Source: Anniella stebbinsi
Lineage: Eukaryota > Chordata > Lepidosauria > Squamata > Anniellidae
Direction of reading: 5' to 3'
Length of the DNA: 64,000 nt
Assembly (NCBI GenBank): GCA_029215795.1
Contig: JARDYH010000001.1
Coordinates: forward strand, 197,291,654 to 197,355,653
Positions 11,917 through 64,000 of the stretch are shown here, piece after piece; the stretch's first letter is position 1; each line of letters opens with the position of its first letter. Position numbers and translations under genes: made by a program. Below the pieces are notes generated by a model. That model did not search any database. It saw only the letters and a program-made list of their open reading frames with translations, and had not been told where the DNA came from.

Positions 11917-11924
11917 ATTATAAT

Positions 11925-12405
11925 TAGGGCTGTGCAAGAATCCGGATCCCGAATCCGAAGCGGATCGGGCTGATCCAGACCTCCTGGATCCGGATCCAAA
12001 CCGGATCGGGCAGGGTCCAATCCGATCTGGATCATGCAGAGCCCCCCTCCCCCCACCCCTCTCCCTAATCGCCCTGCTTACCTTCTGCCTCCTTCTTGTA
12101 GTCCTAAGCGTCACCCACCCTCCTCAATGTCGGCCGTAGCTTTCCCGCTCATGTCGGGTAACATCATCACCCGGCGCAAGCAGGAAAGCGACGGCCAACA
12201 TCGAGGAGGGAGGGTGATGCCGAGGACTACGCGGAGGAGGCAGCAGGTACGCAGGGCGATTGGGGGGAGGGAGCGGGGGAGAGTGCTGTGCACGGATCCA
12301 GATCGGATCTGAGTCAAATCAGGCCCAATCCGATCTGAGTCAGATCAGACCCGATCCGAACCTGACAGATCCGGATCTGGATCCGGGGGTCCGTGCACAG
12401 CCCTA
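11925..12405. mobile_element. 481-bp palindromic hAT-like MITE, GGATC-rich subterminals
   Basis: The ends are TAGGGCTGTGCA and TGCACAGCCCTA, perfect 12-bp inverted repeats. A perfect 8-bp duplication ATTATAAT lies at 11917-11924 and 12406-12413. Behind each end is DNA packed with GGATCC/GGATCGG motifs. The GC-rich centre is itself an inverted repeat (TAGTCCTAAGCGTCACCC pairing with GGGTGATGCCGAGGACTA). There is no transposase. The ends match the 5.36-kb element at 48942-54298, which I take as the same family. The overlapping arginine-rich reading frames are not genes. Confidence 0.9.
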
Positions 12406-12413
12406 ATTATAAT

Positions 12414-26775: not shown

Positions 26776-27854
26776 GCAATACCTGTATTGTCACGGCTTT
26801 AAAGGCTTCTTCTTGAAGAAATTTGGATATCTTCCTCTTTAGTAGCTTCCTGGAACAGTTTACAAAACCTCTGTTTTCCAGCAAAGATTTGCGTGATTGT
26901 TGCTGCCACTGCTCCACCTTCCTCTCTACCCCACCCCTGCCCAATCCTGCTAGCCAATCCCAATTTGTAGTTTGTTTTTTATCTTTTATGGATTTCATTA
27001 CTTGCTTTTTATGAATGTTTTACAATTTTCTGGTCCCAATCAAAAGCATGAAGATTATATGAATAGAAGATATAGAACACACAAAAAGTTACTTAAATGT
27101 TTTGTGCAAGTCAGGTATTCTTTTGCTCATGTTAAATCAATACAATTTAGACAGACGTCAAAAAGTTAGCTACAAGCCCTTTCAGCACAAGGACCACATT
27201 ACAGCAACCACAAGCTTCTTCTAAAAATCAATTTGCAATACCAATAGCAGAAAAGAAATCTTTTTACATGCCACAACTTCTATCCACTCAATGTGACTTT
27301 GAACAAGCAGGAGAGCTAAGCCACGGCTATAATATTCAACCTTCACTTGAAATTTATCTCCAGGGCAGAAAATAATTGGATGTCGCACCTATTAACTCAG
27401 CTTCATTCTGCTAATTATCCTTTAGTAATAATCTTGGGGTTTTTTTTCCTCAGCACAGTATTTTGAGCAGGATTAATATAGGCACTGGTGAAATTATTTT
27501 GAAGGCTATCAAATAATACAGTAAATCAAACTTCTCTGGACATATCTCTTTCAGTTAGCACCAAGGACAACTTCTATATGGAATGCTTTATACTGAATTT
27601 AGAAATAAGACTGCATCTCTTCCTCCATTTTTACAAGCCTCAAATTAGACTTTTCCAATCTTCCCTTCATTGTTACATTCTGGTTTTATTTTGATAGTCC
27701 ATGATTATTAGTTGAAGGACTGTGAGTATGCATCACTTACTGAATACATTTTTTTAAAAAAATCAATTTACAACAGAGTTGTTCTGAAAAGTTTGTTTCA
27801 GCGTTTTAGATCAACTACCCCTCTGCCTCAGTAATGAAACACTGCAAACAAAGT
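26776..27854. other. Intronic sequence, nothing recognised
   Basis: AT-rich; no gene or repeat border found. Confidence 0.4.
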
Positions 27855-28396
27855 GGCTGAATTCGGACAACACATTAAGCAACTGAGGGTGGGGGAAACA
27901 AACTTCAGTTGTGTTGCTTATTGTGTTGTGTGGAGGGTAACACGCTGCTCACAAACTACTGATGGTATGCTATTCCGCCCAAATAAGCAACTGAGAGAAA
28001 CAACTGGCTTGCAAGTTGTTTAGCTCGAAGCCAGTTGTTTAAAGTGTTGTGTGGAGGGGTGAGTGTGTTAATGGCGTGTGGTGAGTGGGTTAAAACACAA
28101 GCCCATAGAGACAGGCGACAAGAGCAACCAAAGCAGCGGCTGCCACTCTGCTACAACTAGTGCAACTTGCAGAGGCTGCTGGGATAGAACTGGGAGGACT
28201 GAGGGAGGAGGGAGGGTGGGGAGAGGGGCGGGGGCTGTGTCAGTCAAATGCTGGGTTGATTATTAGTCCACTCAACGCCAGCCCCAACCACCCACAGTTG
28301 TGTAGGAATATATTGTGTGGGGAGTACCCACAAAAAAACCAACTGTGAGTTGGCTACTCAACCCACCACTGACTAATGTGTTGTCCGAATGCAGCC
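27855..28396. mobile_element. Fold-back MITE (GGCTGAATTCGGAC family), long 542-bp version
   Basis: The termini GGCTGAATTCGGACAACAC and GTGTTGTCCGAATGCAGCC are inverted repeats. Subterminal CAACTGAGGGTGGGG and GTTGTGTGGAGGG motifs recur. It shares ends with the ~225-bp copies at 31465, 43753, 47629 and 48804 but carries an extra GC-richer centre (GGGAGGACTGAGGGAGGAGG region). There is no coding capacity. Confidence 0.75.
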
Positions 28397-29286
28397 ACTG
28401 TGTGTCTACACACACAAAGTATTAGATGATGATGATGATGATGAAACTAATATATAACTCTCATGAAAACAATTAAGATTTATGTGGTACCAGGGAAAAC
28501 ACAATGTAACTTGACTGAACGCCTTGTGCTACAGAAATATAAGAATTTATTTATAAAAATTAAGAACAAAAATATGTCTAGAAATAGGGCACAAGATCCA
28601 CTTCTTTTGATTCTGAATTAATCAGTTCTCCAACTAACGAGCACCAATGAAAAAGGCAGACAAACACCATCCCACATGCCTACTGACTGACTGATATAGA
28701 GAGAAAGGGATCAGTAGGCTGATAATGCAATCTTTGTAAGTGATTTTTCGGTGGACCTAAAAACAAACCACTTCCACTCAATCTTAATCATGAAAATGTT
28801 ATGATCTCTCAAGAGCACACTATCTATATGGTATTGCTGCCAGTTGAGATCAATTGGCTGTACTGGTGTGATGGCTCAAAATGTTCACAAACATTTCAGC
28901 TGCTCAGGGAACAAATATTTGAAGTCGAACCTCTGAAAGAGAGGGGAAAGTCATCAGTTTCCCTGCGATAAAAACTTCACACATGGAAGCAGCACCAAAA
29001 GGAAGGTAAGGTAAGGGGCAGACAGCCCAGAAGGATTTAGAAACAATATCCATGGAAAGGGCCAATGGAAGAGAGGAACCAGCAAGTTGCACAGAAAGGT
29101 ATTCTGCAAGGTGTGGCTTCCAGTGTCACTTCTGCTCAGAGATGTAAACTTTCCAGAAATGTTGAGGCCACGGGGAAACCCCCCCTGTTCCCCCCCCCAA
29201 AACAATTTTTTGGGAAATTGAAAAATAAGCGATACTTATTATTTTAGCGCTCTTTACAGATCTAAGGTAATTTTGTTGCTCTAAGA
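28397..29286. other. Intronic sequence, short (GAT)n
   Basis: (GAT)n lies at 28425-28443. A poly-C stretch is near 29179-29198. No gene seen. Confidence 0.4.
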
Positions 29287-31357: not shown

Positions 31358-31464
31358 TTGACAATCAGAATCACATTCATGTTTTCCACTGACAGAAATT
31401 TCACATCTGTTTAATACTCATGATGCTAGGGGAGCCAAGGAGAGTACAGGCTGAGCAAGTCAGT

Positions 31465-31690
31465 GGCTGAATTCGGACAACACGATAGTCAATGGTGGGG
31501 TAATAACCAACTTTACAGTTGTTCATCTAGGGGGTACTCCCCACACAACATGGTAATAAAAATCAACTGTGGTGTGGATTAGGATCAGCGCTGAGTTGAC
31601 TATGGCAGCATTCGGATGACACGATAGACAATACAACTGACGATTGTTTCCCCCACCCCCAGTTGCTTAATGTGTCGTCCGAATTCAGCC
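31465..31690. mobile_element. Fold-back MITE (GGCTGAATTCGGAC family)
   Basis: GGCTGAATTCGGACAACACG opens and CGTCCGAATTCAGCC closes it. The interior carries GTACTCCCCACACAACATGG and CAGCGCTGAGTTGACTATGG, and a second outward-like CATTCGGATGACACG. This is the 226-bp form. Confidence 0.82.
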
Positions 31691-31907
31691 AATATCTCCC
31701 TACTATTGCCACAAAGATCCAGTTGCAGGAGAAGCTTCAAATGTTACATCCACAGTAACACATGGATCTCAAGAGGTAAAAATGGACTAAAATGCTAATA
31801 AACATTATGGAATATTTAAATTAAGCACTAGGGAGATTGCTGGGAGTGGGGAAAACACAAACACTATGATTTGCTATTAGATTCAACTTCCCTAATTCTC
31901 TCTCTCT

Positions 31908-43752: not shown

Positions 43753-43977
43753 GGCTGAATTCGGACAACACTATAGTCAATGGTGGGTTAATAATCAACT
43801 TTACAGTTGTTCATTTAGGGGGTACTCCCCACACAACATGGTAATAAATAATCAACTGTGGTGTGGATTAGGATCAGCACTGAGTTGACTATGGCAGCAT
43901 TCGGACAACACGATAGTCAATACAACTGACAATTGTTTCCCCCCACCAGTTGCTTATTGTGTCATCCGAATTCAGCC
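43753..43977. mobile_element. Fold-back MITE (GGCTGAATTCGGAC family) flanked by TAA
   Basis: GGCTGAATTCGGACAACAC opens and CATCCGAATTCAGCC closes. TAA flanks both sides (43750-43752, 43978-43980), a 3-bp duplication of the kind PIF/Harbinger elements make. The other copies do not show this clearly. Confidence 0.8.
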
Positions 43978-45036: not shown

Positions 45037-46172
45037 TCAAACCATTTGTTTTGGAATATACAGGCTGCCAGTATATACTATCCTCACGTGAGAAACTGAA
45101 CAAGGAGCTCCCACATCTAAACAGTAGCATGAAAAAATGGTATGCAAGTTACAAACTGAGGGCTGACTCCAACGTAACTTTACACTTTCTCTCTCCATTT
45201 GGCATATATTCTCCATGTCTGCTGCCTCCAGAATTGCCAGCCCCCCACAACTTCTTCCCATCTTATGCCTCCTCACTGCATCAGTTGCGAAGGTGCTATA
45301 GCCCTGCAGCCGGATGTTACGACTTTCCTCCACACATCTCTTGGAGGAGGATAATCGGAAATTGTTGTAAATAGCCCACGAATTCTTTATCAGCTAATTT
45401 GCTAGTCCAACCAGAGACATTCCACGACACTATTTGGAGCTTATAACTAGTTGTTCCTTTAATATCCCAGCTTAGTAAATGGTTAGTTGCAATGGGAGGG
45501 GAAAGCTTAACCATTTCCCCTATGTTAGAATGGTCTATAATCGAGTGGGGGGCTAACTTGCTGTAAGTTGGATTCCCCTCTATATTAGATTTAATTTCCT
45601 CCTTTCTCTGCAGACCAAATAAAATTTCCTTCAACTGCTCTAGTTCTTCCAAAATTTTCTCTTGTGACAAAGTGTCTAACTGTTTGAAGTGCTCCACTTT
45701 GTCGGCCTCCTCCGGCAGAAGTTCTTCCGCCAACGCCTGGAGTCCTTCCCGCAAACGCGACCTATTATGTAGGGTGACCCTATGAAAAGGAGGACAGGGC
45801 TCCTGTATCTTTAACAGTTGCAAAGCACAGGGAATTTCAGCAGGTGTTGTTTGTATGCATATATAACCTGGTGAAATTCCCTCTTCATCACAACAGTTAA
45901 AGCTGCAGGAGCCCTGTCTCTTGACCATGTACAAAAGAGGGCAGGGCTTCCGCAGATTTAACTTTGTGATGAAGAGGGAATTTCACCAGGTTCTGCTTAC
46001 ATACAAATGACATCTGCTGAAATTCCCTTTTCTATGAAACTGTTAAAGATACAGGAGCCCTGTCCTCCTTTTCATATGGTCAGCCTATATTATGGCTAAT
46101 ATATAGCTCTTCCTTTTTACTTGTTCTATCTACTCTGATCCAATGTTGGCCTGACAATATTTCTTGTAACAT
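45037..46172 (-). mobile_element. Non-LTR retrotransposon 5' ORF with AP-endonuclease start, split by a MITE
   Basis: Minus strand, two parts: 46088-46172 and 45037-45769. An ATG near 46172 begins a frame running up to a 318-bp MITE. After the MITE the same frame resumes (GLQALAEELLPEEADKVEHF, then a Glu/Leu-rich helical stretch). It leads to IVSWNVSGWTSKLADKEFV and IILLQE, the opening of an APE-type endonuclease domain. After a frameshift the domain continues with GYSTFATDAVRRHKMGRSCG and GLAI (45037-45333). Clade not assigned. Reverse transcriptase is absent. The copy is inactive. Confidence 0.78.
45770..46087. mobile_element. 318-bp palindromic MITE (TAGGGTGACC...TATGAAAAGGA)
   Basis: TAGGGTGACCCTATGAAAAG and CTTTTCATATGGTCAGCCTA are terminal inverted repeats, and the two halves are mirror copies over nearly the whole length (AATTTCAGCAGGTG, TGAAATTCCCTCTTCATCAC). 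TATTATG is duplicated on both sides (45763-45769, 46088-46094). A rearranged relative sits in the loop of the giant palindrome at about 51533-51737. Confidence 0.85.
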
Positions 46173-47345: not shown

Positions 47346-47628
47346 TATGATGACGGAGCTAAGGGGTATAACTGAGGGAGGAGCATGGAATCAGGCAACT
47401 TGACAGAGGAACATGAAAGCAGGAGCACGGAGAGTAGCATTTAGCGGTGTACTAAACGTTGAGACACATTCCTTGCCCAGTGGGCCAAACAATCTAGTCA
47501 ATATGAACAGAAGGGATGAAAGGAGAAAAGAGTTGAGAAAAAAGCAAAAAGGACACAAAAGATAAGGCAGCTTTAACTAGCAATAGATAAAGCAGAGCAG
47601 GTGGTCCAGGGTAGGCTTTGTCAACAAT

Positions 47629-47853
47629 GGCTGAATTCGGACGACACATTAAGCAACTGGTGGGGGGAAACAATCGTCAGTTGTATTGACTATCGTGTCG
47701 TCCAAATGCTGCCATAGTCAACTCAGTGCTCATCCTAATCCACACCACGGTTGATTATTTATTACCATGTTGTGTGGGGAGTACCCCATAGATGAACAAC
47801 TGTACAGTTGTTTATTACCCCACCATTGACTATTGTGTTGTCCGAATTCAGCC
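47629..47853. mobile_element. Fold-back MITE (GGCTGAATTCGGAC family), intact reference copy
   Basis: GGCTGAATTCGGACGACACA to GTTGTCCGAATTCAGCC, 225 bp. It contains GATTATTTATTACCATGTTG uninterrupted. This is the empty-site version of the position where the giant palindrome inserted in the 48804-54394 copy. Confidence 0.85.
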
Positions 47854-48803
47854 ATTGTGTGGCAGTTGCCGATTTCAGGACCTTCAAGACACTGAACTTC
47901 TTTAATTATACACAAGGGATGGGTGACCCAGGCAGCAAGAGGAAAAAGCTTCAGAAGCAGAATGGAAAGGCAGCTTGCAACACATTTTGGTTGGAGAAAC
48001 ATCTGGTTATAACATAGCCTTATAAAAGGCATACAAGAGGCAGGAGATAGAGGAAATTTAAAAGGTATGTGCTTAATTTCCTCTCTGATCAAATATCTTT
48101 ACAGTTTTCCTAAAAGCGGCAATGTACATGAATAGTTGGTTCCTCAAAAGAATAAGAAACTTAAGAGTTCCATTATACCAGAATACTTTGTTGTTTTGCT
48201 CATCATCTCCAAAGCCCACCCCATTCCTATTACCTCTAACAGCTGTTAGCCAGCTCTTCTCCGAAATCCCAACAGTTAATTAGCAACAAGACACAGTAAA
48301 CATGTACAGCCTGCCACATTTAATTATACTGTAATTTTCTTAACTTAGAAATAGTACATTATTCAAATTTGTGTCTTTTTTTAAGGAAGAGAAAGCAATT
48401 TTTTAGCTTTACATCTAAAAACATCTCCCCACGTTTCTTTGACTACTCTAAGATTGTCACACTGCTTGAAGTACCCAACATACCTTCCCTGAACACGAGT
48501 CATGTAAGAAGATAATAGGCATACTTTAAAAAAATCTCTATATTTTATTCGGCAAAATGTTAATTAGAAGTGGGTGATGCCTAATGCTTTTCTTTTCTCC
48601 CAGCCTTGAAACACTATAGAAAGATACACAACTTTAAGATAATGTATTTCAAGAATTTTTTTTTTGTCTTATCCAATCACTCTAATTCTTTCTGCAGATA
48701 CTTCCTAACTATTGGCCTACTAGAAGATGCTAGCTTTAAAATAAAAAAGATTATTTTTTCACCCTTTTAACATGTACTTCAGTTCACAGTTGACTAAGAC
48801 AAT
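47854..48803. other. Intronic sequence, nothing recognised
   Basis: AT-rich; no gene or repeat border. Confidence 0.4.
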
Positions 48804-48959
48804 GGCTGAATTCGGACGACACAATAAGCAACTGGGGGGGAGGAAACAATTGTCAGTTGTATTGACTATCGTGTCATCCGAATGCTGCCATAGTCAACTC
48901 AGTGCTGATCCTAATCCACACCACAGTTGATTGTTTATTACTAGGGATGTGCACTGACC

Positions 48960-49072
48960 CCCCGGATCGGATAGGATAGCGGATCGGAATCGGACCTGGG
49001 GGGTCGGATCGGATCAGATCGGATCGGAGGCTGGTCGGATCGGATCGGACCAGATGTCCGATCCGGATCGGA
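48960..49072. repeat. Left subterminal GGATCGG repeat block
   Basis: Dense GGATCGGATC repeats ending in the perfect palindrome TCCGATCCGGATCGGA (49057-49072). On the plus strand it reads GGATCGGAGG then CTGGTCGGATCGGATCGG. Confidence 0.85.
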
Positions 49073-49079
49073 CGCCATT

Positions 49080-50590
49080 TTGAATGCTTTTTCTCATAGC
49101 CAAGTATTGTTTTACAAAAATGCCTATAACTTTTTCATTTTTAAAGATAGAAGGATGAAACTTGGGCACATTGTAGACTGGTTATGGATAGTTATCTGTG
49201 AGAAATTTCAGAAAGATTGGTGCATGCGTTTTGTGGCAATTAATTTTTTAATAAATACCCAGGAATGCTTATAACTTTGTCATTTTTAAAGTTACAAACA
49301 TGAAACTTTGCCACATTGTAGGAGGTACCTTGGGACCTATGTGTGTGAAATTTCAGAAACATAGGTGCTTGCCTTGTGTGGCAATTAATTTTAGAAAAAT
49401 GGGTAGTAGTGGGGTAAATACAGTTACGCCTCCCACTTTTTTATTTTTAAAGATACAAACAGGAAACCTGGGCACATTACAGGTACCACTTGCCTTGATA
49501 TGTGAGTGAAATTTCAGAAACATTGGAGCTTGCCTTGTGTGGCAATTAAGTTTTGAAACAATGAGGAAAGAAACACCTATAACTTTGTCATTTTTAAAGT
49601 TACACACATGAAACTTTGCCACATTGTAGGTGGTACCTTGGGACCTATGTGTGTGAAATTTCAGAAACATAGGTGCTTGCCTTGTGTGGCAATTAATTTT
49701 AGAAAAATGGGTAGTAGTGGGGTAAATACAGTTACGCCTCCCATTTTCTTAGTTTTGAAGATACAAACAGGAAACTTGGGCACATTACAGGGAACACTTC
49801 ACTTGATATGTGTGTAAAATTTCAGAAACATTGGTGCTTGCCTGGTGTGGCAATTAATTTTTGAAACAATGAGGGATTCATTGGACAGCACTTGCCCATA
49901 GGGATTCATTGGAGAGTACTTGTCCATAGGGAATCATTGGAAAGCACTTTCCCATAGGGAATCATTGCATTGCACTTTCCCACTGAGAAATGCAGTTATG
50001 CCTCCCACATTTTTATTTTTGAAGATACAAACAGGAAACTTGGGCACATTGTAGACTGGTTAGGGATAGTTATCTGTGAGAAATTTCAGAAAGATTGGTG
50101 CATGCATTTTGTGGCAATTAATTTTTTAATAAATACGCAGGAATGCCTATAACTTTGTCATTTTTAAAGTTACACACATGAAACTTTGCCACATTGTAGG
50201 TGGTACCTTGGGACCTATGTGTGTGAAATTTCAAAAACGTAGGTGCTTGCCTTGTATGGCAATTAATTTTAGAAAAATGGGTAGTAGTGGGGTAAATACA
50301 GTGACGCCTCCCATTTTTTTATTTTTTAAGATACAAACAGGAAACATGGGCACATTACAGGGAACACTTCACTTGATATGTGTGTAAAATTTCAGAAACA
50401 TTGGAGCTTGCCTTGTGTGGCAATTAATTTTTGAAACAATGAGGAAAGAAACGCCTATAACCTTTTTATTTTAAAAGTTAGAAATCTGAACATTGCTCAC
50501 TTTGTAGATGGGTTAGGGGTAGATATGTGTCAGAAATTTCAGAATGATAGGTCCAGGCATTTGATGGCTATGGAATTTTTAGATAAAATG
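49080..50590. repeat. Left-arm array of ~150-bp monomers
   Basis: Nine degenerate units share TTTTTAAAG(T/A)TACA, GAAACTT(T/G)G(C/G)CACATT, GTGTGAAATTTCAGAAA and GTGGCAATTAATTTT. The GAAACTT landmark falls near 49157, 49300, 49460, 49608, 49769, 50034, 50178, 50340 and 50490. Two subtypes alternate (GCCACATTGTAGG and GGGCACATTACAGG), giving a ~310-bp higher-order unit. Apparent 60-69-codon proteins are just this repeat read in frame. Confidence 0.85.
49870..49985. repeat. ~28-bp minisatellite in left arm
   Basis: Four units of about 28 bp, each TTGGANAGNACTTGCCCATAGG-like in content (TCATTGGA, GCACTT, CCATAGGGA). The mirror copy is at about 53263-53378. Confidence 0.8.
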
Positions 50591-50671
50591 TTTCAAAAAA
50601 TTTTCCACAGAGGCCCGGTCTTCCCCTCTTCCCCCTCCCGCTTCCCGCGAAGAAAAGGAAACACTCTCTCG

Positions 50672-50940
50672 TCTCGATCCCTTTGATCCTGTTGCTAGTA
50701 TCCATTACAGGGCTCGTGTCTGCTTTCACTTTTTACTCAAGCAGAACGGCTGAGCCTAGCTGAGTTTTGCAGCCATGCGTGCAAGGAAGGATCTCTCTCA
50801 TCTCGATCCCTTTGATCCTGTTGCTAGTATCCATTACAGGGCTCGTGTCTGCTTTCACTTTTTACTCAAGCAGAACGGCTGAACCTAGCTCAGTTTTGCA
50901 GCCATGCATGCAAGGAAGGATCACTCTCTCTCGATCTCTT
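50672..50940. repeat. 129-bp tandem duplication in left arm
   Basis: TCTCGATCCCTTTGATCCTG recurs at 50672 and 50801, and a partial third copy begins at 50929. Each unit includes GGGCTCGTGTCTGC and AAGCAGAACGGCTGA. The mirror copy lies at about 52309-52577. Confidence 0.85.
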
Positions 50941-51292
50941 TGATCCTTTGTTCCTCCCCTTCTCCTCCCCCTCGCCGGCGTTGTGTGTGCGCCCCGCCGG
51001 TGCCCTCGCGTGCGGGCCGGTTCCTGGGCAGCAGAGGCTCTGCCTGGCTGCTGTGAGGCTCCTGAAGGGCTTGCCTAATGCGGGCTGTTGTGCTCCGCTG
51101 GGCCGCGGGGGTAGGTTGATGATGAAGAGGATGATGGGGAGGGCGTTCAATGGCCCCTCCGCTCACCAACTGACAGCGCGTGCTCCGCTCCAGACACCCG
51201 GCCTCGGCAGCCAGGAGGATACGCTGCCAAGCCCGCCGCCGCCGCCCGCGCGCGCACACACACCACCCGTCCATTATCATTTGGGCAGCCCT
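50941..51292. other. CpG-rich core of left arm
   Basis: GC- and CpG-rich DNA (GCCGCCGCCCGCGCGCGC region) in an otherwise AT-rich window, ending in CATTTGGGCAGCCCTA. Read outward on the minus strand this is TAGGGCTGCCCAAATG, which resembles a hAT terminus. The mirror copy is 51957-52308. The 116- and 132-codon frames here lack any recognisable domain. Confidence 0.7.
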
Positions 51293-51504
51293 AATTAAGG
51301 AGCGCTCAAAAAATGGCAAAACCCCCTCTCCTTTTTTCTTAATTCCTTGCAGCTCCCACGATTTAACCCTTTCCTATCAGCTACAATTAATTAATAGTAG
51401 GATGACCAGTACCAGGAGACTGGTGTGTACAAATGTTTTTTTTTTTTTAGGCTTGAGATCATAAAGAGGCAAATATTCTACCTACCGTATTGGAAGCAGT
51501 ATGT

Positions 51505-51744
51505 ATTATTACTTTTTTAAAAAATGTAATTAGTAGGATGACCATATGAAAAGGAATACAGGGCTTTAACAGTGGAATAGAAAAGGGAATTTCAGCAGGT
51601 GTCATTTGTATCCATGCGGCACCTGGTGAAATTCCCTCTTCATCACAAAAGTTAAAATTGCAGGAGCTCTGCTCTCTTTTGTATCTGGTCACTCTAGTAT
51701 AGCTCCTGCAGCTTTAACTGTCATATGGTCACCCTTGTTTCCCA
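51505..51744. mobile_element. Unpaired loop of the giant palindrome with a rearranged MITE
   Basis: Contains GGATGACCATATGAAAAGGA, AATTTCAGCAGGTGTCATTT, TGAAATTCCCTCTTCATCAC and CATATGGTCACCC. All match the 318-bp MITE at 45770-46087 but in a shortened, rearranged form. This 240-bp stretch is the only part of the element, besides the subterminal blocks, without a mirror partner. Confidence 0.8.
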
Positions 51745-52654
51745 ACATACTGCTTCCAATACTGTAGGTAGAATATTTGCCTCTTTATGATCTCAAGCCT
51801 AAAAAAAAAAAACATTTGTACACACCAGTCTCCTGGTACTGGTCATCCTACTATTAATTAATTGTAGCTGATAGGAAAGGGTTAAATCGTGGGAGCTGCA
51901 AGGAATTAAGAAAAAAGGAGAGGGGGTTTTGCCATTTTTTGAGCGCTCCTTAATTAGGGCTGCCCAAATGATAATGGACGGGTGGTGTGTGTGCGCGCGC
52001 GGGCGGCGGCGGCGGGCTTGGCAGCGTATCCTCCTGGCTGCCGAGGCCGGGTGTCTGGAGCGGAGCACGCGCTGTCAGTTGGTGAGCGGAGGGGCCATTG
52101 AACGCCCTCCCCATCATCCTCTTCATCATCAACCTACCCCCGCGGCCCAGCGGAGCACAACAGCCCGCATTAGGCAAGCCCTTCAGGAGCCTCACAGCAG
52201 CCAGGCAGAGCCTCTGCTGCCCAGGAACCGGCCCGCACGCGAGGGCACCGGCGGGGCGCACACACAACGCCGGCGAGGGGGAGGAGAAGGGGAGGAACAA
52301 AGGATCAAAGAGATCGAGAGAGAGTGATCCTTCCTTGCACGCATGGCTGCAAAACTGAGCTAGGTTCAGCCGTTCTGCTTGAGTAAAAAGTGAAAGCAGA
52401 CACGAGCCCTGTAATGGATACTAGCAACAGGATCAAAGGGATCGAGATGAGAGAGATCCTTCCTTGCACGCATGGCTGCAAAACTCAGCTAGGCTCAGCT
52501 GTTCTGCTTGAGTAAAAAGTGAAAGCAGACACGAGCCCTGTAATGGATACTAGCAACAGGATCAAAGGGATCGAGACGAGAGAGTGTTTCCTTTTCTTCG
52601 CGGGAAGCGGGAGGGGGAAGAGGGGAAGACCGGGCCTCTGTGGAAAATTTTTTG

Positions 52655-54165
52655 AAACATTTTATCTAAAAATTCCATAGCCATCAAATGCCTGGACCTA
52701 TCATTCTGAAATTTCTGACACATATCTACCCCTAACCCATCTACAAAGTGAGCAATGTTCAGACTTCTAACTTTTAAAATAAAAAGGTTATAGGCGTTTC
52801 TTTCCTCATTGTTTCAAAAATTAATTGCCACACAAGGCAAGCTCCAATGTTTCTGAAATTTTACACACATATCAAGTGAAGTGTTCCCTGTAATGTGCCC
52901 ATGTTTCCTGTTTGTATCTTAAAAAATAAAAAAATGGGAGGCGTCACTGTATTTACCCCACTACTACCCATTTTTCTAAAATTAATTGCCATACAAGGCA
53001 AGCACCTACGTTTTTGAAATTTCACACACATAGGTCCCAAGGTACCACCTACAATGTGGCAAAGTTTCATGTGTGTAACTTTAAAAATGACAAAGTTATA
53101 GGCATTCCTGCGTATTTATTAAAAAATTAATTGCCACAAAATGCATGCACCAATCTTTCTGAAATTTCTCACAGATAACTATCCCTAACCAGTCTACAAT
53201 GTGCCCAAGTTTCCTGTTTGTATCTTCAAAAATAAAAATGTGGGAGGCATAACTGCATTTCTCAGTGGGAAAGTGCAATGCAATGATTCCCTATGGGAAA
53301 GTGCTTTCCAATGATTCCCTATGGACAAGTACTCTCCAATGAATCCCTATGGGCAAGTGCTGTCCAATGAATCCCTCATTGTTTCAAAAATTAATTGCCA
53401 CACCAGGCAAGCACCAATGTTTCTGAAATTTTACACACATATCAAGTGAAGTGTTCCCTGTAATGTGCCCAAGTTTCCTGTTTGTATCTTCAAAACTAAA
53501 AAAATGGGAGGCGTAACTGTATTTACCCCACTACTACCCATTTTTCTAAAATTAATTGCCACACAAGGCAAGCACCTATGTTTCTGAAATTTCACACACA
53601 TAGGTCCCAAGGTACCACCTACAATGTGGCAAAGTTTCATGTGTGTAACTTTAAAAATGACAAAGTTATAGGTGTTTCTTTCCTCATTGTTTCAAAACTT
53701 AATTGCCACACAAGGCAAGCTCCAATGTTTCTGAAATTTCACTCACATATCAAGGCAAGTGGTACCTGTAATGTGCCCAGGTTTCCTGTTTGTATCTTTA
53801 AAAATAAAAAAATGGGAGGCGTAACTGTATTTACCCCACTACTACCCATTTTTCTAAAATTAATTGCCACACAAGGCAAGCACCTATGTTTCTGAAATTT
53901 CACACACATAGGTCCCAAGGTACCTCCTACAATGTGGCAAAGTTTCATGTTTGTAACTTTAAAAATGACAAAGTTATAAGCATTCCTGGGTATTTATTAA
54001 AAAATTAATTGCCACAAAACGCATGCACCAATCTTTCTGAAATTTCTCACAGATAACTATCCCTAACCAGTCTACAATGTGCCCAAGTTTCATCCTTTTA
54101 TCTTTAAAAATGAAAAAGTTATAGGCGTTTTTGTAAAACAATACTTGGCTATGGGAAAAAGCATT
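52655..54165. repeat. Right-arm array of ~150-bp monomers (mirror copy)
   Basis: Mirror image of the left array in the same unit order, with very few substitutions. Includes AAATTTCACACACATAGGTC and CAATGTGGCAAAGTTTCATG units. Confidence 0.85.
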
Positions 54166-54175
54166 CAAAATGGCG

Positions 54176-54290
54176 TCCAATCCGGATCGGACCTCGTCGG
54201 ATCGGATCGGAGGTTGGTCGGGTCGGATCGGATCTTCCCGATTTTGGGTCGGATCGGATTCGGATCGTGGATCGGATCCGATCCGATGCA
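54176..54290. repeat. Right subterminal GGATCGG repeat block
   Basis: Begins with TCCAATCCGGATCGGA (54176-54191) and, on the plus strand, reads GGATCGGATCGGAGGTTGG then TCGGGTCGGATCGG. This is the same direction as the left block rather than its mirror image. Confidence 0.85.
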
Positions 54291-54394
54291 CACCCCTATT
54301 TATTACCATGTTGTGTGGGGAGTACCCTCTAGATGAACAACTGTAAAGTTGATTATTACCCCACCATTGACTATCGTGTTGTCCAAATTCAGCC

Positions 54395-55416
54395 AATGTA
54401 TCTTATGGAGGATGCCAGATTGTGCTGCATATAAATTTTAAAGGCTGAATACCACAAAACACAGAGCAGCCACTTGAAAGAAATGAAATGATGTCCAAGT
54501 CAAGCAGACAACATCATGAAAACAAAGATTAAGCCATTGCAAAGATTAGTCTGACAGTTCACTCTATTGAACCGGATGAGTTATTATTATTATTATTATC
54601 ATTAAGAACAGCCCAACCATTTTTTTTCTTGATGAGAAAGAAGGGAGTCTCACAGAAGAACTCCTTCTGCGTACAGAACTCTCTTAACTCCCATTCAGAA
54701 TGGAAAACTTAAGATATAAATAAAAAGCCAATTCAATATATGCAACATGATTAACCAAGAGTTTTAAAACACCAAGGGCTGCTTCATAATATTACATTTT
54801 TCCTCCACAGGAGATAGTTGCCAGCTATAAAATGGACCTATGTTACAGTATAATAATCTGAGCATGCAGCTAAGCATTAATTCCAAGGCGTATGTGCACC
54901 TGTAGTGGAGCAAAGTTAGGGGGTGCAGAAAATTTAAATGAAAAATACACTGGTGATATCAGAGGGGTCAGGTGCATAAAACTCAGTGGTTTCAAACTGT
55001 CAGTCAATTAAAAGTTGTGTATGCACGTGTTTACTTTGTTAAAAAATAATCCGCGTACATACAATGAAGCACAGCTGACTTTCTGAAATCAAATTTGCAA
55101 GTATCAAGCCAATATACATCAAAAATCAATGCTTGCCCTCATCATCAGGTACTCTTTTTTCAGCACTGCCAAAGCAGCTAAAAATAGTGCTTTTCATTAA
55201 AGTCTGAATATGAAGGTTCAACGCTTCAGCTGTACAGTAGTACTGTACCTCAACAAAAGCCAGCCAATATGTTTAATTATTTGGGATATTCAACCCAATA
55301 TGACACTGCCATATAACTATGAAATATATTAAGCTATTTGAGGTTACAAAGTCAAATCAGACCTTAATTCAATCTGACAATTTCTAGTTAAAAATAATGT
55401 ATTATTCTCCATCAAC
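54395..55416. other. Start of intron 2 next to the exon 2 donor
   Basis: Unique-looking intronic DNA with a short (ATT)n at about 54582-54600. No repeat or gene found. Confidence 0.45.
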
Positions 55417-56121: not shown

Positions 56122-56589
56122 CACCATATAAAACCTTGTGCAAGAGATTGCACAATCTCTTGACAAACAGAAGCACATCTATATATTTACATTATCCTTT
56201 TTCACTCAAGGATCCTGCACTAGGTCAGAAGGACACCTCTGGATCCAAAGCGTTAATATATAATCACATTTTCTTCAACACATTATACAATATCCAACAC
56301 TAAGGCTCAGACTAAACCATGCACTCTTGCACAGAGACTCAGACTAAACCATGCATTCTTGCATAGCAACTTATTACATCCACAGAACTCCTCCAATATG
56401 TAGGTCCTCTCTCCAGCCTTCTTCTCTCACCCATGACAAACATTTTGCTGGCATAAGATGGGTTCCCCAACTTTTTTGGACCTGTGGACACATTTGAGAA
56501 TTTGAGAAACTGCTGCTGTGGGCACTACCACAAAATGCCTTATCAGTGGATTGTCACATCTGTGGATCTTAGGCTATGCCTTATCCAGC

Positions 56590-58250
56590 AAAAACTTTTT
56601 TTCATGTCTATTGGATATCACAATGTATTTTTAATAAAGGATTGTCTAATTCAGCTAATTGCTGGGGGTGCAATAAAGCTAATGCTTCTTTTAAACATAT
56701 ATTTTGGCAATGTCCAGTAGCCAACTTATTATTACACAGATACCATGGTATCCTTCTGGGACGACTGTCTGAGGTGGGAGTGGGAGGCACTGCATTGCAG
56801 TGGTTCCGCTCCTACTTGGGGGGTCGGCTTCAGAAGGTGGTGCTTGGGGAACATTGCTCGGCCCCATGGATTCTCCAGTATGGGATTCCACAGGGGTCCG
56901 TCTTGTCCCCCATGCTGTTTAACATCTACATGAAACCGCTGAGTGCAGTCATCCGGAGTTTTGGAGTGTGTTGTCATCAGTACGCTGATGACACGCAGCT
57001 CTACTTCTCCTTTTGATCTTCATCAGATGAGGCTGTGGATGTGCTGAACCAGTGCCTGGCTGTGACAATGGACTGGATGAGAGCTAATAAACTGAAACTC
57101 AATCCAGACAAGACTGAGACACTGTTAGTGGGTGATTCTGCTGACCGGATAGAGGGTCTTCAACCAGTTCTGGATGGGGTTGTACTCCCCTTGAAGGATC
57201 AGGTTCGTAGCTTGTGGGTTCTCCTAAAACCAACTCTGTTACTTGAGGTTCGGGTGGCCTCAGTGGCACGGAGTGCCTTCCACCAACTTCAGTTGGTGGC
57301 CCAGCTACGTCCCTATCTGGACAGGGATAACCTGGCTTCAGTTGTCCATGCTCTGGTAACCTCAAGGTTAGATTACTGCAATGCACTCTACGTGGGGCTG
57401 CCTTTGAAGAAGGTTCGGAAGTTGCAGCTTGTGCAAAATGCAGCAGCCAGATTGGTAACTGGGACCAGAAGGTTCAAGTATATAACACCTACTCTGGCCC
57501 GCTTGCATTGGCTGCCTGTATGTTTCCGAGCCCGATTCAAGGTGCTGGTTTTAACTTATAAAACTTTACACGGCTTGGGACCACAATACCTGGTGGAATG
57601 CCTCTCCCGACATGAACCTACCCGTACACTATGATCAACATCTGAGGTCCTCCTCCGAGTGCCTTCTCTGTGGTAGTCCCCCAATTGTGGAATGATCTCC
57701 CCGACAAGGCCCGCCTGGCGCCAACATTGTTATCTTTTCGACGCCAGGTCAAGACTTTCCTCTTCTCTCAGGCATTTAGCAATATCTGATGAGCCTGGGT
57801 TTGTTTTGTTTTTAGGCTTATAGCTTTTAAAAGTTATTATAGTGGTTTTAAATGTGTGTGTATATTGTATGTTTTTGCTGTTTTAATTTTTGTATATTGT
57901 TTTTAATTGTTTTAATCTTATGTGAACCGCCCAGAGAGCTTCGGCTATGGGGCAGTATACAAATGTAACAAAATAAATAAATAAATATTTTACCACTGAT
58001 GCACAACCTCTTTTAAATTATTTACCTCTTTCACTGAAACTAACAAATGGCCAATGTAAATGGATTCTCTGTGCTCTTTTGACAGCTAAAAGACTGTAAT
58101 TACAACAGTGCAAGGATCAACACTCACTTCCTATGATGCAATGGATTGAGGACCATACAACTCTTTCAATATTCAAAAAGGTGGCATATAGACTGACTTC
58201 ACCTTCAAATGGATACTTATTTGGATATTTTGTCAGGTTTTGTTGAAGTC
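56590..58250 (+). mobile_element. L1-type LINE ORF2 C-terminus, split by a CR1-type LINE
   Basis: Left part 56590-56740 encodes CWGCNKANASFKHIFWQCP, matching the conserved Cys/His block near the C-terminus of L1-group ORF2. Right part 57986-58250 resumes with LLTAKRL, QQCKDQHSLPMMQWIED and FKKVAYRL, the segment that follows in L1 proteins. The 1.24-kb CR1-type element lies between. Both pieces are mutated; inactive. Confidence 0.72.
56741..57985 (+). mobile_element. CR1-type LINE, best-preserved copy in window
   Basis: Plus strand, 5'-truncated. ILLGRLSEVGVGGTALQWF, PQGSVLSPMLFNIYMKPLSA and the catalytic YADD in CHQYADDTQLYF occur in one frame (to 57016). A frame shift and stop intervene. 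NPDKTETLLVG, then HALVTSRLDYCNALYVGL, LQLVQNAAARLVTG and LHWLPV follow in the 57035-57634 frame. The LWN-type C-terminus is frameshifted. The 3' UTR ends CAGAGAGCTTCGGCTATGGG, then (AATA)n. The reverse transcriptase copies element RNA at a nicked target; here it is inactive. Confidence 0.9.
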
Positions 58251-63100: not shown

Positions 63101-64000
63101 CTTATTTGGAAGAACCAAACCCTCTTCTTTCAACCAATGCATCCTTTAAAAGATCAGTTGGAGATAAAACTGGACTGGATTTTTTTACCTCATGTGAGAT
63201 TATTATTTAGGCCACAAATAAACAAACCTATCTTCTTTGGAGTAAAATCGCCTTACTTTAATTCAAAGCATAATATAGAAACAGACATGGAGAAGTGTGG
63301 CAAAATATGAAACTTGTGTATTGTGCAGATTGGAATATCCATTTCTTCACACAAGATGATAGATTAAACAGACGCTGTGCCAACATGAACAGTGTAAGTG
63401 CTCAAAATTCACATTTTCCAATTATTTTAGCATTTGCTAGAATTACCTCAGGCAATGAATTAAAGAGAAATAAACTGGAGGAAGAGCTTTTCAACAACAG
63501 AGAAGTTCTGTCTGTTGGGAAACAGTAAATAGCATTTCCTCCTACATTGAAAAGATTCAAAATTATACTGTACTGTAATATTGATCCTTTATGTGTTAAT
63601 CATAAAACTTGAAATCTTGATGGTATTCTAAAATCTAAACTGAAGAGATTTACAATCGAACTGAAGGGGGAATTTTCTTTTTTTTTTTCTTTCTTCTCCT
63701 TTATTTTTAAAGAAAAAAACCACCCAAATGGAAACGCTCGGATAGGGGTCTGCAAGGAAATCTATAGGCTCAAAGAAATAAATAGAAATAAACAAGGCGT
63801 GTGCTTTAACTGATAATTTTAAGGCAATTTCACAGATGTTTGAACATTTGGGAACTAATCAAATGACTGCAAATCGAGGCAGCCAAGAACAAAGCTCCCA
63901 CTCAGTGGTTCAGGGTCAGAACTAGGGATGCCAAAATTGAAGGCCTTTTCCTTTCAAGACCAAAGCCTGTACAAAACATTCAGCAACTTTAATGGCCTCA
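63101..64000. other. Intronic sequence to window edge
   Basis: The 116-codon frame at 62960-63310 starts in the LTR-like block and has no recognised domain. The ACTAGGGATGCC near 63922 could begin another TAGGG-ended MITE but is cut by the window edge. Confidence 0.35.

Follow-up and report, generated by a model that had tools for sequence, protein, structure and literature searches.

Modular fold-back arms built with tandem units are known from the TU elements of sea urchins and the FB elements of Drosophila. When long, fold-back elements can give rise to inversions, cruciform breaks and double-stranded RNA; the way in which their arms form is unsettled. Here, we describe a 5357-bp palindromic element with hAT-type ends in a 64,000-nucleotide stretch of the genome of the squamate Anniella stebbinsi (contig JARDYH010000001.1, positions 197,291,654 to 197,355,653 of the forward strand). 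This stretch is referred to as the window, and all positions below are positions within it.

In Atlantic cod, gadMor-hAT-1784 was described as a palindromic, hAT-derived miniature inverted-repeat transposable element (MITE) without an open reading frame (ORF) (PMC12368964). Like the present element, it is found in a vertebrate and assigned to hAT, and its inverted arms are made of tandem units, which measure 167-169 bp in cod and ~133 bp here; its arms are ~600 bp long, versus 2449 bp. Compared by description only, and in the part of that paper available to us, there is no mention of unmirrored ends or of a CpG-rich insert. Galileo, an element of the P superfamily in Drosophila (PMC4168063), also has kilobase-long arms, with ~140-bp tandem repeats within them and pieces of foreign transposable elements recruited into both. 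In its longest copy (112), the arms measure 4,246 and 4,680 bp, and the two target duplications are identical. Galileo differs in its P-type transposase, its 7-8-bp duplications with the consensus GTATTAC, and its insect host. Tetris of Drosophila virilis (PMC4079207) is also non-autonomous and modular, with arms of up to 1,735 bp, ~220-bp tandem units, target-site duplications (TSDs) of 8-10 bp and ends common to the short MITE DAIBAM, but it was placed in Mutator by its authors and is likewise an insect element.

A preliminary description of this DNA, made from its letters alone, had considered such an element unusual. As to size, this does not hold, since kilobase-long fold-backs with tandem arms are in print (9,021 bp for the longest Galileo copy, PMC4168063); the palindromic hAT MITE of cod is likewise in print for a vertebrate, though with far shorter arms (PMC12368964). 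A literature search covering titles and the starts of abstracts yielded no vertebrate hAT fold-back with kilobase-long arms among the matches listed; most subscription papers fall outside this scope, and the result is not proof of absence. The element is a longer, young example of a known fold-back class, and a variant of it by its near-identical arms and unmirrored ends.

Insertion unit and empty sites

The whole insertion unit spans positions 48942-54298 (5357 bp) and is bordered on both sides by an exact 8-bp duplication, TTTATTAC, with identical, unstranded copies at 48934-48941 (left) and 54299-54306 (right). The sequences flanking the unit are the two halves of one ~235-bp repeat. In 3/3 uninterrupted copies of this repeat that were aligned (at 47.6, 43.8 and 31.5 kb, all unbroken), TTTATTAC was present once at the insertion point; this count excludes an older, interrupted copy (about 27847-28404). 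The 47.6-kb copy carries an additional, separate TTTATTAC 53 bp downstream, which does not adjoin the insertion point. Because TTTATTAC is single in the empty sites and doubled around the unit, it is virtually certain that 48942-54298 is a transposition-type insertion of one unit, with 8 bp duplicated. The unit and its flanking duplication had been placed correctly in the preliminary description, and these empty sites within the window support its reading of the unit as a transposable element whose ends are of hAT type and whose target was duplicated over 8 bp.

An inverted chimera, produced during library preparation or assembly, would be another source of a long palindrome: long perfect palindromes are known to result from missed hairpin adapters or whole-genome amplification. 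However, a chimera would mirror the flanks too, whereas the actual flanks are two halves of one repeat. Moreover, the ends of the unit differ, its centre is asymmetric and its arms show 12 internal differences. We consider an artefact to be very improbable.

Palindrome arms and their divergence

The arms account for 91% of the unit (2 × 2449 of 5357 bp), the left one lying at 49056-51504 (plus strand, 2449 bp) and the right one at 51744-54192 (minus strand, 2449 bp). When the left arm was aligned with the reverse complement of the right arm, 2437 of the 2450 columns were identical, an overall difference of 0.5%. The self-alignment that had been proposed as a check gave a minus-strand BLAST match of 96.8% identity over 5208 columns. 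The arms are thus nearly undiverged, as had been claimed, although they measure 2.45 kb rather than the announced 2.55 kb or so; the term near-perfect palindrome applies to the arms, but not to the outermost 114 and 106 bp, which are unmirrored, nor to the 239-bp centre, which is unpaired. No 16-mer of the arms was found elsewhere in the window, and exact-pattern scans of viral contigs gave no match, as expected for a eukaryotic element.

Thirteen columns differed between the arms: one at the inner edge, and otherwise 11 substitutions and one homopolymer indel. Of these latter 12 differences, the outermost 135 bp hold five (3.7%) and the remaining 2314 bp seven (0.30%). A permutation of the tightest five gave p 0.012 and a Kolmogorov-Smirnov (KS) test p 0.06; the binomial value for the outer 135 bp (3e-4) depends on a cut chosen post hoc. 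We regard the clustering as suggestive only. No divergence gradient was detected along the whole arm, and the seven inner differences fit a uniform distribution (KS p 0.58). CpG sites, of which the left arm has 58, hold 5/11 substitutions, four of the five being transitions.

The preliminary description had left the choice between a recent origin and arms kept alike by gene conversion. A recent duplication alone is sufficient to explain the inner divergence (7/2314 bp, 0.30%). The alternative, according to which the arms are old and have been homogenised by conversion between them, receives weak support from the clustering, since an outer excess of differences is what would be expected if conversion tracts stopped at the non-homologous terminal blocks. 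On the other side stand the KS value above and the share of CpG substitutions, which is as in plain decay after one recent duplication; in addition, the much shorter arms of a related 481-bp element in the window are 78% alike, so they have not been kept alike. Gene conversion as the cause of the likeness is therefore rather unlikely.

Terminal repeats and terminal blocks

The 12-bp terminal inverted repeats announced for the element are present, TAGGGATGTGCA at the left end (48942-48953, plus strand) and TAGGGGTGTGCA at the right end (54287-54298, minus strand), and agree at 11/12 positions. The exact pattern TAGGGRTGTGCA matched twice in the window, each time at one of these two repeats. When up to two mismatches were allowed, 13 matches were obtained versus a shuffle mean of 9.9, and 17/100 shuffles gave at least 13. 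As the pattern with two mismatches is no rarer than expected by chance, short repeats alone prove little, and the element is instead evidenced by its target duplication, its arms and the empty sites. Near the end of the window, at 63743-63754, lies a further stretch (TAGGGGTCTGCA) that matches the terminal repeat with one mismatch.

An end-like stretch, the inverse of TAGGGCTGCCCA, lies at 51282-51293, inside the left arm, and is mirrored at 51955, as might be expected if two separate elements had been inserted head to head. This stretch differs from TAGGGATGTGCA at three positions and is followed by ATTAAGGA rather than TTTATTAC, and the mirror symmetry runs ~210 bp beyond it, to 51504. With, in addition, a single duplication around the whole unit, a head-to-head pair is extremely improbable.

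Each end is formed by a block of GGATCGGATC-type repeats: a left block of 114 bp (48942-49055, plus strand), which has no mirror copy on the right, and a right block of 106 bp (54193-54298, listed on the minus strand), whose strand orientation is the same as that of the left block. Except for the 12-bp repeats, these outer 114 and 106 bp have no inverted copies. With at most one mismatch, GGATCGGATC-like repeats were found 22 times in the window (shuffle mean 1.2), 18 of them in the 5357-bp element and three in the 481-bp relative. When the blocks were aligned without the 12-bp repeats, the direct score was 33 and the inverted score 20, with a maximum of 17 in 500 mononucleotide shuffles. Because the direct match beats the inverted one, neither end resembles an inverted copy of its counterpart; the two ends would thus be distinguishable and not products of inverse duplication.

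The mirror arms start, within 3 bp, at a self-complementary 18-mer, GTCCGATCCGGATCGGAC (49056-49073, unstranded), which has a right counterpart with one mismatch at 54175-54192. With one (TA)n run excluded, the window has five stretches, GTCCGATCCGGATCGGAC among them, that are perfectly self-complementary over 18 nt or more.

Centre of the palindrome

The arms are separated by an unpaired, asymmetric centre of 239 bp (51505-51743, unstranded). Most of it is a nested fold-back MITE, TAGGATGACC...GGTCACCCTT (51534-51736, plus strand, 203 bp), which is kin to a second MITE at 45770-46085 and shows 80-81% identity to pieces of it. Spacers of 29 and 7 bp, unlike in sequence, separate the nested MITE from the arms. 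At the flanks of the nested MITE, no target duplication was recognisable (at most 5 of 8 positions alike in the stretch compared), so its insertion into a finished palindrome is disfavoured; instead, we infer that this region is the joint of a rearrangement.

The MITE at 45770-46085 is itself palindromic: it measures 316 bp, has the form TAGGGTGACC...GGTCAGCCTA with TATTATG on each side, and its halves are mirror copies of each other (84% over 334 columns).

The 481-bp relative

The relative lies at 11925-12405 (plus strand), 37 kb away from the 5357-bp element, and has the same layout. Its two ends are both TAGGGCTGTGCA (12/12) and its terminal blocks are rich in GATCC; an inner palindrome lies at 12020-12308 (78% alike over 291 columns). 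All of this is enclosed by a duplication of its own, ATTATAAT, at 11917-11924 and 12406-12413. The single strand of the relative folds much more stably than 100 shuffled versions of it (z -20.7). Together with the 45.8-kb MITE, these two bring the number of palindromic elements in the window to three. When the terminal blocks of the two TAGGG-ended elements were paired, the left block of the large element scored 86 against the right block of the relative and 70 against its left block; the right block scored 59 against the left block and 55 against the right one (maximum of 45 in shuffles in which the 12-mer was kept).

Both palindromic TAGGG-ended elements have a CpG-island-like interior, at 50950-51270 (CpG observed/expected 0.79) and 12060-12290 (0.77), compared with 0.30 for the window.

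The relative bears on whether the large palindrome ever moved. A shorter hAT-type MITE may have been inserted, and the palindrome then formed in place without moving itself. All features lie inside one target duplication, as they would whichever event came first; the central MITE is not flanked by a duplication of its own, as would be seen where a rearrangement was joined, and the arms are very alike. Against this, a second element with the same type of end, 37 kb off, is also a palindrome within its own duplication. Its presence fits repeated palindrome formation in the family, yet each of the two palindromes could have formed in place. Formation in place is, in our view, a possible but doubtful explanation, and the mobilisation as one palindromic unit that the preliminary description assumed is probable rather than shown.

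Superfamily assignment

The terminal repeats of hAT elements usually start with C/TAGNG, and nTnnnnAn is the consensus of Ac-type target duplications. Both elements described here have ends that start with TAGGG and an 8-bp TSD, the 12-bp ends of the large one reading TAGGG[A/G]TGTGCA. In length and start, these repeats are as in hAT, for which terminal inverted repeats of 5-27 bp have been given, while Buster elements have the target consensus nnnTAnnn (PMC3517528). Both TTTATTAC and ATTATAAT fit nTnnnnAn and neither fits nnnTAnnn (n = 2), which agrees with an Ac-like target choice. By its ends and target duplication, on which the assignment is based, the element is quite probably a non-autonomous one of hAT type.

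The long inverted arms with tandem units and the flanking target duplications are those of a fold-back element; the arms do not, however, reach the ends of the element, since mirror symmetry is missing from the outer 114 and 106 bp except for the 12-bp repeats. The majority of fold-backs appear to belong to Mutator (PMC4079207), and the 8-bp duplication would fit the 8-10-bp range of Tetris, but the TAGGG ends and the nTnnnnAn duplication favour hAT. Similarly, the duplication resembles the GTATTAC consensus of Galileo, but the TAGGG ends are hAT-like.

Origin of the palindrome

The reading that we favour, and hold to be probable, is that the unit is a fold-back element of hAT type, non-autonomous, and that an inverse duplication has recently doubled its interior but not its ends, presumably through template switching during repair. 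The element would be moved in trans by the transposase of another element. In a shorter ancestor, excision or a break would have been followed by repair synthesis from the end with the right terminal block; synthesis would then have switched template at the self-complementary GTCCGATCCGGATCGGAC motif, which is present near both terminal blocks (with one change on the right), and an inverse copy of the left interior would have been made and connected near the central MITE. Mirror arms could be lengthened in this way while both ends needed by the transposase were kept. We are fairly confident that the duplication preserved the ends, i.e., that the interior was doubled and not the distinguishable ends, and only tentatively place the template switch at the GATCCGGATC motif.

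As a source of defective Galileo copies, transposition and gap repair that abort, slip or switch template have been put forward, and the Galileo arms recruit internal as well as foreign DNA (PMC4168063). Re-replication at maize Ac ends (PMC4270019) could also lead from hAT ends to composite insertions, but the word 'inverted' is absent from that text.

Several observations weigh against the favoured reading. No transposase domain was found in the element (Pfam, nine ORFs of arm and centre), and no second full copy was seen in the window. hAT elements have been described as under 4 kb overall, which is not a strict criterion (PMC3517528); the 481-bp relative lies within this length, but the 5357-bp element exceeds it, and we therefore use the wording 'hAT-type'. 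The inverted score of the terminal blocks (20) also exceeded all shuffles (maximum 17): block polarity is a preference, not absolute, and some mirror likeness is left, as repeats of GATC motifs give. Across the two elements, end polarity is weak, the second block pairing not being decisive. As the terminal blocks are made up of GATC-type motifs, finding self-complementary sequence where the arms begin is less remarkable than the plain count suggests. Lastly, the central MITE without a target duplication is only loosely explained by the model.

A bolder and rather improbable extension would make the GATCCGGATC-rich, self-complementary terminal blocks themselves the site of template switching. 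The family would then repeatedly mirror the DNA that it carries, CpG-island-like host sequence included, while keeping both transposition ends, and would constitute a vertebrate family of palindrome-making transposons.

The arms of the element differ by 0.5% and stop, where a self-complementary motif lies, just short of two ends that can be told apart; the joint of the palindrome can therefore be read almost unmutated, and copies of the element could tell whether such palindromes form once and spread or form repeatedly.

Arm contents and coding potential

From the outside inward, each arm consists of ~133-bp units, a 129-bp array, a CpG-rich stretch and then an AT-richer stretch (coordinates are given for the left arm, plus strand). 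The nine satellite-like ~133-bp units (49118-50581) follow the order A-B-C-B-C-[28-bp array]-A-B-C-D, the class letters A-D being our own naming, and are mostly spaced at 145-161 bp. Over 133 nt without gaps, units were 89-95% alike within classes A, B and C and 59-78% between classes. The 28-bp tandem array (49872-49982) comprises 4 copies and the 129-bp array (50664-50947) 2.2 copies. The CpG-rich stretch (50950-51270) has a GC content of 0.70 and may possibly be captured host DNA. The tandem units diverge by 5-11% within classes, versus 0.5% between the arms. This far larger divergence of the units indicates that they had multiplied in tandem before the interior was duplicated in inverse, or before the arms were last homogenised.

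The peptides encoded in mirror positions of the two arms are, as the preliminary description reported, identical or nearly identical in translation, but this follows from the arms being palindromic and shows no coding function. Such a function was rejected: none of the nine ORFs of arm and centre contained a significant Pfam domain (one match, a zinc finger, E = 0.72), and the left half had 42 stops in the single frame tried. No significant Pfam domain was detected in one ORF of the 481-bp relative either. Protein searches with an ORF of the tandem units and with the ORF of the relative returned no relative and no match, respectively. The ORF of the CpG-rich stretch had one protein relative, a metagenomic sequence of unknown kind (P0001; 53% over 59% of the query, E 1.4e-12), which we take to reflect a probable kinship at the DNA level of a non-coding or repeated stretch. 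No structured RNA or tRNA was found in the window. The element is without recognisable genes.

Other repeats in the window

The ~235-bp repeat into which the element was inserted has GGCTGAATTCGGA-type inverted ends and occurs five times in the window: at 31461-31691, 43753-43977 and 47624-47857, at about 48797-54399 (interrupted by the element) and at 27847-28404 (older). It is flanked by TAA on both sides in one copy and by AAT in the interrupted one, and we assume it to be possibly a PIF/Harbinger-like MITE. In the oldest copy, at 27930-28309, the middle is ~315 bp longer than in the 47.6-kb copy. Relics of reverse transcriptase (Pfam RVT_1), which lend the window a eukaryotic look, were observed at 56573-57013 (E 2.7e-11), 57017-57631 (E 0.025) and 1811-2116 (E 1.4e-4), the first of which was the only one above the Pfam cut-off.

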